This document shows positions 4,180 through 61,059 of a DNA stretch of 64,000 nt, one piece after another. Location of the stretch: assembly GCA_027019175.1 (NCBI GenBank), contig JALUXB010000019.1, positions 1-64,000 on the forward strand. The letters are read 5' to 3'. The translations under genes were made by a program, and so were the position numbers. Source of the DNA: Sulfurovum sp. GTDB taxonomy: Bacteria > Campylobacterota > Campylobacteria > Campylobacterales > Sulfurovaceae. The stretch's first letter is position 1, and each line of letters begins with the position of its first letter. Below the pieces are notes generated by a model. It was given only the letters and a program-made list of their open reading frames with translations, had not been told where the DNA came from and searched no databases.

Positions 4180-4201
4180 GGTGTTGTCCCCTGACAACAC
4201 C
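4176..4201 (+). repeat. REP family 2 hairpin
   Basis: GTAAGGTGTTGTCCCCTGACAACACC; carries the aguB stop codon (TAA 4177-4179). Confidence 0.75.
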
Positions 4202-18589: not shown

Positions 18590-20563
18590 TTGTCAAACTT
18601 TATTGTAAACAGTCCTTATAATCCTTCAGGTGATCAGCCTGAAGCCATTAAAGCACTTTCGACATCCATTCTTGAAGGCAACCGCTATCAGACGCTACTG
18701 GGGGTGACGGGGTCGGGGAAGACCTATACCATGGCGAAAGTGATTGAAAAGACCAAAAAGCCCACACTCATTATGACGCACAACAAAACACTGGCGGCAC
18801 AGCTCTACAGTGAGTTCAAAGCCTTTTTCCCCAACAACCATGTCGAGTATTTTATCAGCTACTACGACTACTATCAGCCCGAAGCCTATCTGCCACGGCA
18901 GGATCTTTTTATTGAAAAGGACAGTTCCATCAACCAGGAGCTTGAACGGCTCAGGCTCAGTACCACCGCCAGCCTGCTCAGCCATGATGATGTCATCGTC
19001 ATCGCATCGGTTTCGGCAAACTACGGTTTGGGAAGTCCGGAGGACTACCGCTCCATCGTCCAGAAGCTCTCGGTAGGCGAAGAGTACAACCAAAAGGAGC
19101 TTTTACTGCGGCTTGTGGACATGGGCTACAAGCGTAACGACGAATTCTTCGATATCGGGAACTTCCGTGTCAGTGGTGAAGTCATAGACATCTATCCTGC
19201 TTACTCCGATGAGTTTGCCGTACGCATCGAATTTTTCGGTGACGAGATAGAGGACATTTACACCTTCAACTCACTGACCGGAGAGAAAGAGAAGCACATG
19301 AAGGAAATAACTATCTACGCCGCCAACCAGTTCGTGGTGGGCAAGGAGAAGCTCGCACGCGCCATTAAGAGCATTGAAGAGGAACTGGATGAACGGCTTG
19401 CCTTTTTTCAGCGTGAGGGACGCATGGTGGAGTACAACCGTCTCAAGCAGCGTACTGAGTTCGACCTTGAGATGCTCGAAGCCACCGGTATGTGCAAGGG
19501 TATTGAAAACTACTCGCGGCACCTCACAGGCAAAAAGCCCGGCGAGACCCCCTACTCGATGATGGACTACTTCGAGGTGATGCATGACGACTACCTTGTC
19601 ATTGTGGATGAGTCGCACGTTTCACTGCCGCAGTTTCGGGGAATGTACGCGGGAGACCGCAGCCGTAAAGAGGTACTGGTAGAACACGGTTTCAGACTGC
19701 CAAGTGCACTGGACAACCGCCCGCTCAAGTTTGACGAGTACATCAACAAAGCACCCCACTATCTCTTTGTCTCCGCCACCCCTGCCCAGCTTGAGCTTGA
19801 CCTCTCCGCTACTGTTGCCGAGCAGGTTGTCAGACCCACCGGGCTGCTTGACCCTGAGATCGAAGTTATCGATTCGACTTATCAGGTAGAAAATCTGCAT
19901 GACCGTATGAAACCGGTCATCGAGCGTGGAGAACGGGTGCTTGTTACCGTGTTGACAAAAAAGATGGCAGAGGAGTTGACAACCTACTACAACGACCTTG
20001 GACTCAAGTGTAAATATATGCACTCCGATCTTGACGCCATCGAGCGTAACCAGATCATCCGCTCTTTACGGCTTGGGGAGTTTGACATCTTGGTCGGGAT
20101 CAACCTGCTAAGAGAAGGGCTTGACCTGCCCGAAGTCAGCCTTGTAGCCATTTTGGATGCGGACAAAGAGGGCTTTTTGCGCTCCCAGACGGCACTCATC
20201 CAGACTGCCGGACGTGCCGCACGTAACGCCAACGGTAGAGTGCTGATGTATGCCAAAAAGATGACCGACTCGATGAAGGCTACCATCGAGATCACACAGG
20301 CAAGAAGAAAGAAGCAGATTGCCTATAACAAGGAACACGGCATCACCCCCAAAACCACCATCCGGGAGCTTGACACCAACCTCAAGGTCGAAGACGGCGG
20401 CGAACTCTACAACAAACGCTCCAAACTTGACAAAATGCCCAAAGCCGAACGTCAACAGCTTATCAAAGAGCTCAAAGCCAAGATGCTTGCAGCAGCCAAA
20501 AATCTGGAGTTTGAAGAGGCGGCAAGGCTGAGAGATGAGATAGCGAAGATTAAAAAGCTGTAG
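18590..20563 (+). CDS. uvrB: Excinuclease ABC subunit B
   Basis: [37 protein letters not shown]-terminal UVR motif [15 protein letters not shown] start. Confidence 0.97.
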
Positions 20564-20652
20564 GGTGCGTAGTCACGCACCTTCAAGCCATTATGAAAAA
20601 ACAGCGTTCATTATCGGTTTACGCGTAAACGGTGCGAAATATCGCACCCTAC
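20560..20652. repeat. REP family 1 inverted pair
   Basis: GTAGGGTGCGTAGTCACGCACC (20560-20581, includes uvrB stop) and GGTGCGAAATATCGCACCCTAC (20631-20652). Confidence 0.85.
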
Positions 20653-20717
20653 AAGATATTTTGCTATAATACCTCCAAATATTATAATCACATACTGTCT
20701 AAAAAAGGATATGCAAG

Positions 20718-20798
20718 ATGCCTTCATCAATAAAGGCATTGCAAAGCAATGCAAACCGACACTATTCACCAAATCGCCCATCGGAGTCCCTCCGATGA
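20718..20798 (+). CDS. Putative ppk leader peptide MPSSIKALQSNANRHYSPNRPSESLR
   Basis: AAAGGA 8 nt upstream of ATG 20718; stop TGA overlaps ppk ATG (ATGA). Confidence 0.4.
   Translation: MPSSIKALQSNANRHYSPNRPSESLR
20736..20770 (+). repeat. Palindrome-heptamer element, copy 2 (ppk)
   Basis: GCATTGC-AAA-GCAATGC (20736-20752) then AAACCGACACTATTCACC. Confidence 0.72.
20779..20797 (+). promoter_or_regulatory. Hairpin over Shine-Dalgarno and start codon of ppk
   Basis: CATCGGAG-TCC-CTCCGATG, 8-bp perfect stem; GGAG in 5' arm, ATG 20795 in 3' arm. Confidence 0.6.
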
Positions 20799-22879
20799 TC
20801 GATTTGAACGACCCCCAGCTCTACTTCAACCGTGAACTCAGCTGGCTGCAGTTCAACTCCCGTGTACTGGCACAGGCACTCGATGAAACTCTGCCGCCGC
20901 TGGAGCGTTTGAAATTTCTTGCCATTTACGGTACGAACCTCGATGAATTTTACATGATCCGTGTTGCAGGGCTCAAAGCACTCTTCAAAGCACGTGTTCA
21001 GGAGACCGGACCAGACCGTCTTACGCCTGCCGAACAGTTGGCACAGATCCGTGCCTATCTGCATAAGGAGCATGACATACTCGAATCATGCTACACCTCC
21101 ATTATCTCAGAACTTCATAGCCATGGTGTACATATTAAAAATTTCGAAGCACTCTCGGCAGCACAGCAGGAAGAGGTAAAAGAGATCTTCTTTGAAGAGA
21201 TTTATCCGGTTATCATTCCCATCGCCATCGATGCCACTCACCCCTTCCCTCACCTGAACAACCTCAGTTTTGCGCTGGCCATTACACTGGAGGACGAGTC
21301 GGGGCATATCAAACACGGGCTTATCCGTATTCCGCGTATTCTTCCACGTTTTATTCAGGTCGATCATACGTTTATTCCCATTGAGAGTGTCGTTGAGCAC
21401 TTTACAACCGAACTTTTCCCCGGATTCACTCCGCTGGCATCCACCCCGTTTCGTGTTACACGAAATGCCGATATTGAAATAGAAGAAGAGGAAGCTGATG
21501 ACTTTCTGGAAATTTTGCAGGAGGGACTGCGCTCTCGGAACAAGGGTTCACTCATCCGCCTTGAACTGCTCGAAGGGGTTGATGATGACCTGCTTCAGTT
21601 CCTGCTGACACACCTCAACCTTAACGAACACGATATTTACCCATACAAAAGCCTGCCGCTTAACCTCGGCGCGCTTTGGCAGATTGTCGGAGACAAACAG
21701 CTTTCACACCTTGTACTGCCTACTTTTACGCCAAAAATTCTGCCGCCTTTTGATACCGAAAATGTTTTTGAAGCCATTGAAAAACAGGATGTCGTGCTCT
21801 ACCATCCCTTCGACAGTTTTGAACCGGTCGTACAATTCATTAAACAGGCTGCTGCAGACAAAGATACCATTGCCATTCGCATGACACTCTACCGCGCCGG
21901 ACAGAAATCGCCTATTGTCAAAGCGCTCATCGATGCCGCACGTGACGGCAAGCAGGTTACTGTACTTGTTGAACTCAAAGCGCGTTTTGACGAAGAGAAC
22001 AACCTTCGCTGGGCAAAGGCACTCGAAGATGCCGGAGCACATGTAGTTTACGGCATCCCGGGACTCAAGGTACATGCCAAAATTGCACAGGTCATCAAAC
22101 GCCGGGGCCGCAAGCTGCAAAGCTATGTACACCTCGCAACAGGAAACTACAATCCAAGCACTGCTAAAATCTATACCGATATATCCTACTTTACAGCCAA
22201 AGAGGCATTTTCTACCGACGCAACTCATTTCTTCCACTTTCTGACAGGGTTTTCAACCTACACCAAACTTGGCACGCTGTTCATGTCGCCGGTACAGATC
22301 AAGCCCAAACTCATCAAACTGATTGAAAAAGAGAGCCAATTGGGAAAAAAGGGGCATATTATTCTCAAGGCCAACTCGCTGGTAGACCAGGATATTATTA
22401 AAACCCTCTACAAGGCTTCTCAAAAAGGATGCCGAATCGATCTTATCATCCGTGGTATCTGCTGTCTTAAACCGGGAGTGAAGGGTGTTAGTGAAAACAT
22501 TAAAGTCTCTTCTATCATCGGGAAGTACCTCGAACACCCGCGTATCTACTGGTTTAAGCACCAAAAGGTCAAAACCTACATTTCCAGTGCCGACCTGATG
22601 CCGCGTAACCTCGTACGCCGTGTCGAGCTGATGACACCTATCATAGAACCCAATCTCTCACAGAAGATTGAACAGATACTCATGTTGCAGCTTGCAGACA
22701 ATCAGTTACGCTGGGAACTACAAAAGAGCGGTGAATATGTGAAGGTTCCTGCGCTTGGCAAAAAAATCAACAACCACAAAATTCTTGAGCAGTATGTCAA
22801 CCGTATCCATGACAAAACCAAAAAAGAGACACCCAATTATGTCAGCCGCTTGGCAAACCGTATTTTAAAAGAAGGATAA
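20795..22879 (+). CDS. ppk: Polyphosphate kinase 1
   Basis: LYFNRELSWLQFNSRVL, YHPFDSFEPVV, KLIIRGICCLKPGV-like motif; ATG 20795 preferred over 20711. Confidence 0.95.
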   Translation: MIDLNDPQLYFNRELSWLQFNSRVLAQALDETLPPLERLKFLAIYGTNLDEFYMIRVAGLKALFKARVQETGPDRLTPAEQLAQIRAYLHKEHDILESCYTSIISELHSHGVHIKNFEALSAAQQEEVKEIFFEEIYPVIIPIAIDATHPFPHLNNLSFALAITLEDESGHIKHGLIRIPRILPRFIQVDHTFIPIESVVEHFTTELFPGFTPLASTPFRVTRNADIEIEEEEADDFLEILQEGLRSRNKGSLIRLELLEGVDDDLLQFLLTHLNLNEHDIYPYKSLPLNLGALWQIVGDKQLSHLVLPTFTPKILPPFDTENVFEAIEKQDVVLYHPFDSFEPVVQFIKQAAADKDTIAIRMTLYRAGQKSPIVKALIDAARDGKQVTVLVELKARFDEENNLRWAKALEDAGAHVVYGIPGLKVHAKIAQVIKRRGRKLQSYVHLATGNYNPSTAKIYTDISYFTAKEAFSTDATHFFHFLTGFSTYTKLGTLFMSPVQIKPKLIKLIEKESQLGKKGHIILKANSLVDQDIIKTLYKASQKGCRIDLIIRGICCLKPGVKGVSENIKVSSIIGKYLEHPRIYWFKHQKVKTYISSADLMPRNLVRRVELMTPIIEPNLSQKIEQILMLQLADNQLRWELQKSGEYVKVPALGKKINNHKILEQYVNRIHDKTKKETPNYVSRLANRILKEG

Positions 22880-24229: not shown

Positions 24230-24251
24230 GCGTTCTCTCTTGTCAATCAAA

Positions 24252-24304
24252 GCATTGCAAAGTAATGCATACCGAAACTATTCACTCTTCACTCTTCTCT
24301 CTTC
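24252..24304 (+). repeat. Palindrome-heptamer element, copy 3 (3' side of dnaQ-like gene)
   Basis: GCATTGC-AAA-GTAATGC (24252-24268), ATACCGAA, then ACTATTC ACTCTTC ACTCTTC TCTCTTC. Confidence 0.75.
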
Positions 24305-46764: not shown

Positions 46765-48078
46765 ATGAATACCCCATCAAAAAAAGCATCGCAAAGCGAT
46801 GTATACCAACACTCCTCACTCCTCACTCCTCATTCCTCACTATCCAAACAAAGTATCACTTTGTTTGGATATGGTTTGACCACCAAAGCCATTGCCAAAA
46901 AGCTTGGCGGGGGCTGCACCTTCTTTGACGATAACTGCAAGGAATCCTACACCGATGATATGGGAAACCGTATTCTGCCTTCACACCTCTTCGACCCGGA
47001 CACAAGTGAACTGGAAATTACCACCCCCAGTCTCAAACCCGATCATCCCCTCATTAAAAGTGCAAAGCATCTGTTGAGTGAATACGACTACTTTCTTGGC
47101 AGGGTATTGTCGGGGGACAACACCCTGCAAAAAAAACCGTTCACAGTTTGGATTAGTGGCACCAACGGTAAGACCACCACGACACAGATGCTCACCCATC
47201 TCCTTGAAAAACGCGGTGCGGTAAGCGGAGGAAACATCGGTACACCCTTGGCAGAGCTGAATCCTGAAGCGAACATCTGGGTACTGGAAACAAGCTCTTT
47301 CACTCTCCACCATACCCGCTACGCTTCCCCCAACATCTACCTTCTGCTTCCCATTACTCCCGACCATCTTGACTGGCATGGAACACCGGAAGCCTATGAG
47401 GCGGACAAACTCCGCCCGCTTAAAATGATGCAAGAAGGGGAACTGGCACTCGTTCCAAAAGGGCTGACTCTTCCTGAAACCGATGCCTTTGTCGTTGAAT
47501 ATGACAGCAATGATTTTCTTTGTGAATACTTTGGCCTCGATGCTTCACAACTCAACTATCGGGGTGCTTTTTTACAAGATGCTCTACTCTCGCTGGCCAT
47601 TGCCAAAGTACTGTTTGACGAAACAGACTACAACCTGCTTAACCGTTTCAAACGTGATGCCCACCGACAGGAAGAGTTTACCGATGCCAAAGGGCGCCTT
47701 TGGGTCAATGACTCCAAAGCAACTAACCTCGATGCGGCAGTACAGGCCGTCAAAGGGTATGCCGACCGTCACATCCACCTTATCATTGGCGGTGATGACA
47801 AAGGAGTTGACCTTACACCCCTTTTTAAACTTATTGCACCAATGGACATCACCCTTTACAGCATTGGCGCCAACAGCGAAAAAGTAAGAGCACTCTCAGA
47901 AAAATTCGGCATCGATCTCAAAGAGGCCGGTACACTTGAGAATGCCGTAAGAATGATAGATAAGGTTCTTGATGAAAAGAGCATCGCACTGCTCTCCCCT
48001 GCCGCAGCAAGTTTTGATCAGTTCAACTCCTATAAACACCGAGGTGAAGCGTTTGTTGATCTTGTGAAAGCACTTTGA
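46765..48078 (+). CDS. murD: UDP-N-acetylmuramoylalanine-D-glutamate ligase with repeat-derived N-terminus and internal insert
   Basis: ITLFGYGLTTKAIAKKL, VWISGTNGKTTTTQML, VNDSKATN, GGDDKGVDL; repeat-encoded NTPSKKASQSDVYQHSSLLTPHSSL and LGRVLSGDNTLQ. Confidence 0.95.
   Translation: MNTPSKKASQSDVYQHSSLLTPHSSLSKQSITLFGYGLTTKAIAKKLGGGCTFFDDNCKESYTDDMGNRILPSHLFDPDTSELEITTPSLKPDHPLIKSAKHLLSEYDYFLGRVLSGDNTLQKKPFTVWISGTNGKTTTTQMLTHLLEKRGAVSGGNIGTPLAELNPEANIWVLETSSFTLHHTRYASPNIYLLLPITPDHLDWHGTPEAYEADKLRPLKMMQEGELALVPKGLTLPETDAFVVEYDSNDFLCEYFGLDASQLNYRGAFLQDALLSLAIAKVLFDETDYNLLNRFKRDAHRQEEFTDAKGRLWVNDSKATNLDAAVQAVKGYADRHIHLIIGGDDKGVDLTPLFKLIAPMDITLYSIGANSEKVRALSEKFGIDLKEAGTLENAVRMIDKVLDEKSIALLSPAAASFDQFNSYKHRGEAFVDLVKAL
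46786..46841 (+). repeat. Palindrome-heptamer element, copy 4 (murD)
   Basis: GCATCGC-AAA-GCGATGT (46786-46802), ATACCAAC, then ACTCCTC x3, ATTCCTC, ACT. Confidence 0.78.
46841..46871 (+). promoter_or_regulatory. Perfect 14-bp hairpin at the native murD start region
   Basis: TATCCAAACAAAGT-ATC-ACTTTGTTTGGATA. Confidence 0.6.
47099..47128 (+). repeat. REP family 2 hairpin in-frame inside murD
   Basis: GCAGGGTATTGTC-GGGG-GACAACACCCTGC, one A-C mismatch. Confidence 0.68.
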
Positions 48079-51241: not shown

Positions 51242-51316
51242 AGGGAGTTGTTCCTTGACAACACCAATAACCACAAACCTTATTTACAATTGGTGTTGTG
51301 AGACACAACACCCTAC
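51242..51316. repeat. REP family 2 inverted pair
   Basis: AGGGAGTTGTTCCTTGACAACACC (51242-51265, degenerate) and GGTGTTGTGAGACACAACACCCTAC (51292-51316). Confidence 0.7.
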
Positions 51317-52327: not shown

Positions 52328-52349
52328 GGTGTTGTCCCCCGACAACACC
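52324..52349 (+). repeat. REP family 2 hairpin
   Basis: GTAGGGTGTTGTCCCCCGACAACACC; tilS stop TAG 52325-52327 is within its GTAG. Confidence 0.82.
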
Positions 52350-60956: not shown

Positions 60957-61059
60957 GTAGGGTGTTGTCCCCCGACAACACCAACAGTTTATTCCGGTAA
61001 TAGAATTTGGTATAGTGAGTGCGACCAAAGGAAGTGCCTGTGGTGCACAGCACCCCTGC
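60957..61059. repeat. REP family 2 element with degenerate partner
   Basis: GTAGGGTGTTGTCCCCCGACAACACC (60957-60982); GGTGCACAGCACCCCTGC (61042-61059). Confidence 0.65.

Follow-up and report, generated by a model that had tools for sequence, protein, structure and literature searches.

The gene for polyphosphate kinase 1 (ppk) in the genome of a deep-sea Sulfurovum sp. is preceded by a short open reading frame that ends on the ppk start codon, which itself lies in a hairpin, and this raises the question of whether translation of ppk depends on that of the leader and, if so, whether polyphosphate synthesis is what the arrangement controls. We approached this question in the 64,000-nucleotide stretch that contains the gene (contig JALUXB010000019.1, positions 1 to 64,000; here, the window), in the rest of the source genome, and in other members of the genus. 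The answer that we consider probable is that a dispersed palindromic element, REP/MITE-like in character, supplies many Sulfurovum genes with short translated leaders, each coupled to the gene behind it, and that the ppk leader is one of its copies.

Direct reading of the forward strand bore out every coordinate that the first-pass annotation of this locus had given: a leader Shine-Dalgarno (SD) sequence, AAAGGA, at 20704 to 20709; a leader ATG at 20718; a 26-aa frame, MPSSIKALQSNANRHYSPNRPSESLR, spanning 20718 to 20798, whose TGA (20796 to 20798) overlaps the ppk ATG (20795 to 20797) as ATGA at 20795 to 20798; and a stem core formed by CATCGGAG (20779 to 20786), TCC, and CTCCGATG (20790 to 20797). 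The same annotation had proposed that this hairpin masks the ppk start, which agrees with our predictions, but it understated the extent of the structure. The full stem is an inverted repeat at 20770 to 20806 with 17-nt arms and 2 mismatches, and its predicted RNA fold, at -20.7 kcal/mol, compares with a mean of -7.2 for shuffles (z = -6.2; 0 of 200 shuffles were as stable). The ppk SD, GGAG at 20783 to 20786, lies in the 5' arm, 8 nt before the ATG in the 3' arm. Pfam and NCBIfam identify the 694-aa product of the gene (20795 to 22879) as polyphosphate kinase 1, and a start at MIDLN agrees with those of relatives. A plus-strand transcription terminator at 20770 to 20806 was considered and rejected, as no T-run follows the stem and a terminator scan lists none there. 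A search for riboswitches and other Rfam RNAs gave no match above the gathering score, the only hit being a 16-bit chance match against a gathering score of 50.

The leader is probably present on the ppk transcript, because promoter-like TATAAT boxes lie upstream of its SD. These comprise a probable -10 box in a TGCTATAAT context at 20665 to 20670 and a second TATAAT box at 20683 to 20688, with a promoter scan match at 20661 to 20688, and TTTTGCTATAAT-like boxes are found upstream of ppk in most members of the genus. Farther upstream, the interval between uvrB and ppk holds a paired GTAG-type REP-like repeat, GTAGGGTGCG...CGCACCCTAC, at 20560 to 20652, with about 40 matching places in the genome.

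Going beyond the earlier description of the locus, we found that a copy of a dispersed palindromic element (model R1, 64.6 bits) makes up the body of the ppk leader (20725 to 20769), with its core stem, GCATTGC-AAA-GCAATGC, at 20736 to 20752. The element has a core, AATAAAAGCATTGCAAAGCAATGCATACCAACACT, with a tail of heptamer repeats (e.g., TTCACTC), and it is open in two reading frames; in the reverse orientation, the core is similar to an intrinsic terminator. Searches with a covariance model derived from 14 copies recovered 36 copies in the source genome at E <= 0.05, 14 of them strong, and identified the element in 39 of 61 Sulfurovum genus genomes, mostly fragmented MAGs, at 0 to 90 copies per genome. 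Named records with the element belong to Sulfurovum and other Campylobacterales MAGs, one of which is labelled Nitratifractor. Many copies form head-to-head inverted pairs and others are single halves. It is this dispersed and patchy distribution that leads us to infer that the element is mobile, and our literature searches found no published description of it. One further copy in the source genome (C87:12670 to 12714, minus strand) lies in frame inside an anmK-like gene, as is seen with Rickettsia palindromic elements.

The ppk copy is not the only one in the window. When the window was scanned for hairpins enclosing the SD-preceded start of a long open reading frame, the only genes to score were ppk and that for agmatine deiminase, while murD has a perfect 14-bp hairpin over its N-terminal codons; each of these three genes lies downstream of a copy of the one shared repeat. 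At the agmatine deiminase gene, the plus-strand copy (2170 to 2259) comprises a leader ATG at 2170, the element at 2180 to 2224, and a hairpin at 2237 to 2259 that holds the GTG start at 2254, and it is preceded by an inverted (left) half of the element on the minus strand at 2111 to 2156. At murD, the plus-strand copy (46765 to 46871) comprises a leader ATG at 46765, the element at 46775 to 46819, and the 14-bp hairpin at 46841 to 46871 over the first codons. The leaders of both of these copies are fused in frame with the gene, as is the case for a minority of leaders overall. A fourth plus-strand copy, at 24241 to 24285, lies at the 3' end of a convergent gene and lacks a strong hairpin.

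To place these loci in context, we examined 100 element copies with their flanks, mainly the best matches and stretches chosen around matches. At gene starts, a hairpin begins right where the element ends, usually 21 to 23 nt beyond the modelled core; the gene itself contributes the 3' arm, in the form of its SD or start region, the 5' arm mirrors that sequence, and the SD regularly lies inside. Hairpins scoring at least 8 occur at 60% of starts versus 0.8% of dinucleotide shuffles, and those scoring at least 10 occur at 37% of starts versus no shuffles, with the longest stems (19 to 20 perfect pairs) found at an acyl-CoA dehydratase activase gene. The start regions of the analyzed copies have a median folding energy of -13.4 kcal/mol, compared to -6.7 for control genes from the same stretches (p ~1e-12), and an independent gene call gave medians of -15.3 and -6.7 kcal/mol, respectively (p = 5e-5). 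The hairpin also tracks the element among orthologues: the median energy at the ppk start is -2.7 in 19 genus members without the element versus -22.8 in three species with it, and the corresponding values for coaD are -3.9 and -17.1, a comparison in which one element-bearing copy (L159) was grouped by the motif rule as lacking the element, which works against the difference.

The hairpins at coaD and ppk have been maintained while their own sequence changed, as judged from pairs in which both positions differ among species, although the same covariation could arise through templated correction of palindromes. At coaD, a 32-nt hairpin is common to eight species, with 7 of 14 pairs changed on both sides and 94.6% of cells pairing, a covariation score reached by no shuffle; at ppk, 5 of 16 pairs are changed on both sides among three species. 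Prediction and covariation together indicate that the SD or start of the gene would be sequestered by RNA structure. In one genome (G065), only the left half of the element lies upstream of coaD (L162), and this gene uses as its own the SD and ATG from which a leader starts elsewhere, suggesting that the start of the leader was once that of the gene.

The leader frames also bear on coupling. Where a start has a recognizable SD-preceded leader, with gene starts and leaders assigned by rules, 36 of 48 copies have it in the frame that stops, in nearly all cases, on the gene start or no more than a few nucleotides away from it, and the commonest junction is ATGA. Orthologues are related, making family counts the safer numbers, and by this measure 18 of 25 gene families have the leader in the start-overlapping frame (binomial p = 9e-5). 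Moreover, the element is read in either of its two frames, chosen to match the distance to the gene so that overlap results (19 of 25 families, in a slightly different family grouping; Fisher p = 0.001). Because the frame choice goes with distance to the gene, it seems to be the leader-gene junction, not the peptide, that is under selection. A conserved function of the leader peptide was rejected on similar grounds: the peptide varies and is encoded in either of two element frames, and its sequence is therefore probably unimportant. Phase variation driven by the heptamers is likewise not favored: most hairpins lie at one distance from the core (offset 21 to 23), heptamer number is fairly constant, and the ppk copy of the source genome, although shorter in its heptamers by about 21 nt than those of two relatives (G009 and G002), has its frame preserved. 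Some starts, including uvrB and most aat copies, have no recognizable leader; these, and the leaders fused in frame with their gene, count against the coupling account.

The predicted translational coupling of leader to gene is well supported by these comparisons of sequence and predicted structure. Ribosomes would load at the exposed leader SD and ATG and translate through the element, and termination at the ATGA overlap would bring them onto the hairpin that otherwise hides the SD and ATG of the gene, where either the terminating ribosome or one behind it would initiate. The gene would then be expressed to the extent that its leader is translated, few ribosomes initiating independently. The simplest reading is an RNA-unfolding and/or reinitiation model of translational coupling, and we infer both the coupling itself and that selection for it is what maintains the start hairpins. 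The first-pass annotation had arrived at a leader that opens the ppk hairpin, and for this mechanism the covarying hairpins, their association with the element, and the tendency of leaders in front of unrelated genes to stop where the following gene starts provide comparative backing. Its suggestion that polyphosphate synthesis in particular is the target did not hold up, as the same module precedes coaD, hisA, apaH, murD, aat, holA, and others. No specific signal is apparent, the genes behind the element including ppk, coaD, hisA, apaH, aat, and holA, so that a general expression arrangement is more likely than a regulon.

Several other accounts of these structures have to be weighed against coupling, and the element copies that are not at gene starts bear most directly on them. 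Junction hairpins are found at 39% of the 38 copies not classed as starts, mostly at the 3' ends of convergent genes, at or adjoining the stop codon (e.g., at L114, L130, L104, L143, L110, and L118, which include purH-like, argF-like, and other genes), and coupling cannot be the reason for these. Mirrored hairpins could be a by-product of insertion, or of templated (strand-switch) repair that copies the flanking gene end in inverted form at each junction, in which case coupling would not be what they were selected for and leaders would persist only as ribosome passage. That the 5' arm begins directly at the element end (offset 21 to 23) in both the start and non-start classes, that non-start element ends carry hairpins at all, and that orthologous argF-like 3' ends (L143 and L104) have different, equally perfect hairpins all point in this direction, but hairpins are commoner at starts (60% versus 39%), the SD regularly falls within them, and the leader frame bias points to selection on coupling. 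We regard this account as possible though rather unlikely; it accounts for the origin of the hairpins and does not conflict with coupling. Insertion or repair may generate a hairpin at every junction, those at starts being then put to use, or the 3'-junction hairpins may have a separate role at RNA ends; coupling at starts is compatible with both options. A further reading, also rather unlikely, is that a mobile palindrome takes over translation starts, its insertion at a gene end copying the flank such that the inverted duplicate locks the start in a hairpin and translation of the element's leader unlocks it; if true, dozens of housekeeping genes would have become dependent on element-encoded leaders.

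A role in RNA processing or stability, in which border hairpins shield neighboring mRNAs from exonucleases and the element acts as a terminator or cleavage site, would fit the terminator-like reverse of the core and the 3'-end hairpins at or adjoining stop codons. It predicts neither leaders that end at the start codon in most families nor an SD and ATG inside the hairpin, however, and we consider it improbable. At ppk itself, the frame of the gene is open back to an ATG at 20711 (a 722-aa open reading frame), and PPK might be N-terminally extended and the leader frame meaningless, but the spacing of that ATG from the SD is 1 nt, two element-bearing relatives (G002 and G009) have no in-frame upstream start, all relatives start near the same N-terminal residues, and the extension would be the repeat itself; this alternative is very unlikely. 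Finally, short open reading frames are common in any sequence, and one could coincide with a random hairpin, yet the hairpin z score of -6.2 and the covariation make such chance negligible, and recurrence in unrelated genes already refutes it.

Coupled leaders of this general kind have precedents at individual loci. In Escherichia coli, the stop codon of a 27-aa leader, ORF27, overlaps the start of iraD, whose SD is sequestered in a hairpin, and coupling was shown with a start-to-stop mutation (PMC5574718). The Sulfurovum ppk locus resembles this system in its SD-preceded short leader overlapping the gene start and in the predicted hairpin that holds the SD and start, whereas ORF27 is a single locus under CsrA control and is not carried by a dispersed repeat. 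Coupling by ATGA or TGATG overlap and RNA unfolding has been reviewed (PMC12548453 and PMC6728339) and is known from phage f1 genes VII and IX; the -4 and -1 overlaps and the masking structure opened by upstream translation are shared, but the upstream partner there is normally a functional gene, the place of which is taken in Sulfurovum by a leader carried on a repeat. Rickettsia palindromic elements, like other MITE-borne open reading frames (PMC10969869), are also dispersed, translated palindromes, sometimes in frame inside genes, but that paper does not describe them as start-coupled leaders that have gene-specific hairpins. The GTAG and CGTC superfamilies of REP elements (PMC3733652, where Sulfurovum sp. 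NBC37-1 is listed) are likewise short palindromes that occur singly or as inverted pairs in many copies and are patchy between species; the Sulfurovum element differs from them in lacking a GTAG or CGTC tag in its modelled core consensus and in having a heptamer tail and a leader role. Bicistronic design cassettes (e.g., PMC5995908) place a short leader cistron before a target gene, but they are engineered and have no gene-specific masking hairpin, and the element leaders may be their natural counterpart.

Coupling of a gene with a hairpin-masked start to a short leader is known from single genes such as iraD; here a repeat appears to have spread the arrangement over many unrelated genes in one genus. 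These natural replicates, with element-free orthologues as controls, offer a way of testing whether coupling is driven by RNA unfolding or by reinitiation, and how translation could be rewired by a repeat that leaves promoters untouched. Automated annotation may also misplace starts and miss leaders in element-bearing genomes.

Two minor observations concern further repeats in the window. Inside murD, at 47092 to 47135, there is an in-frame repeat that has a GACAACACC arm, and two other genomes (G009 and G054) have the heptamer element in frame at approximately the same place. Another dispersed palindrome, GGTGTTGTC-N4-GACAACACC, is present at 4180 to 4201, 51292 to 51312, 52328 to 52349, and 60961 to 60982.
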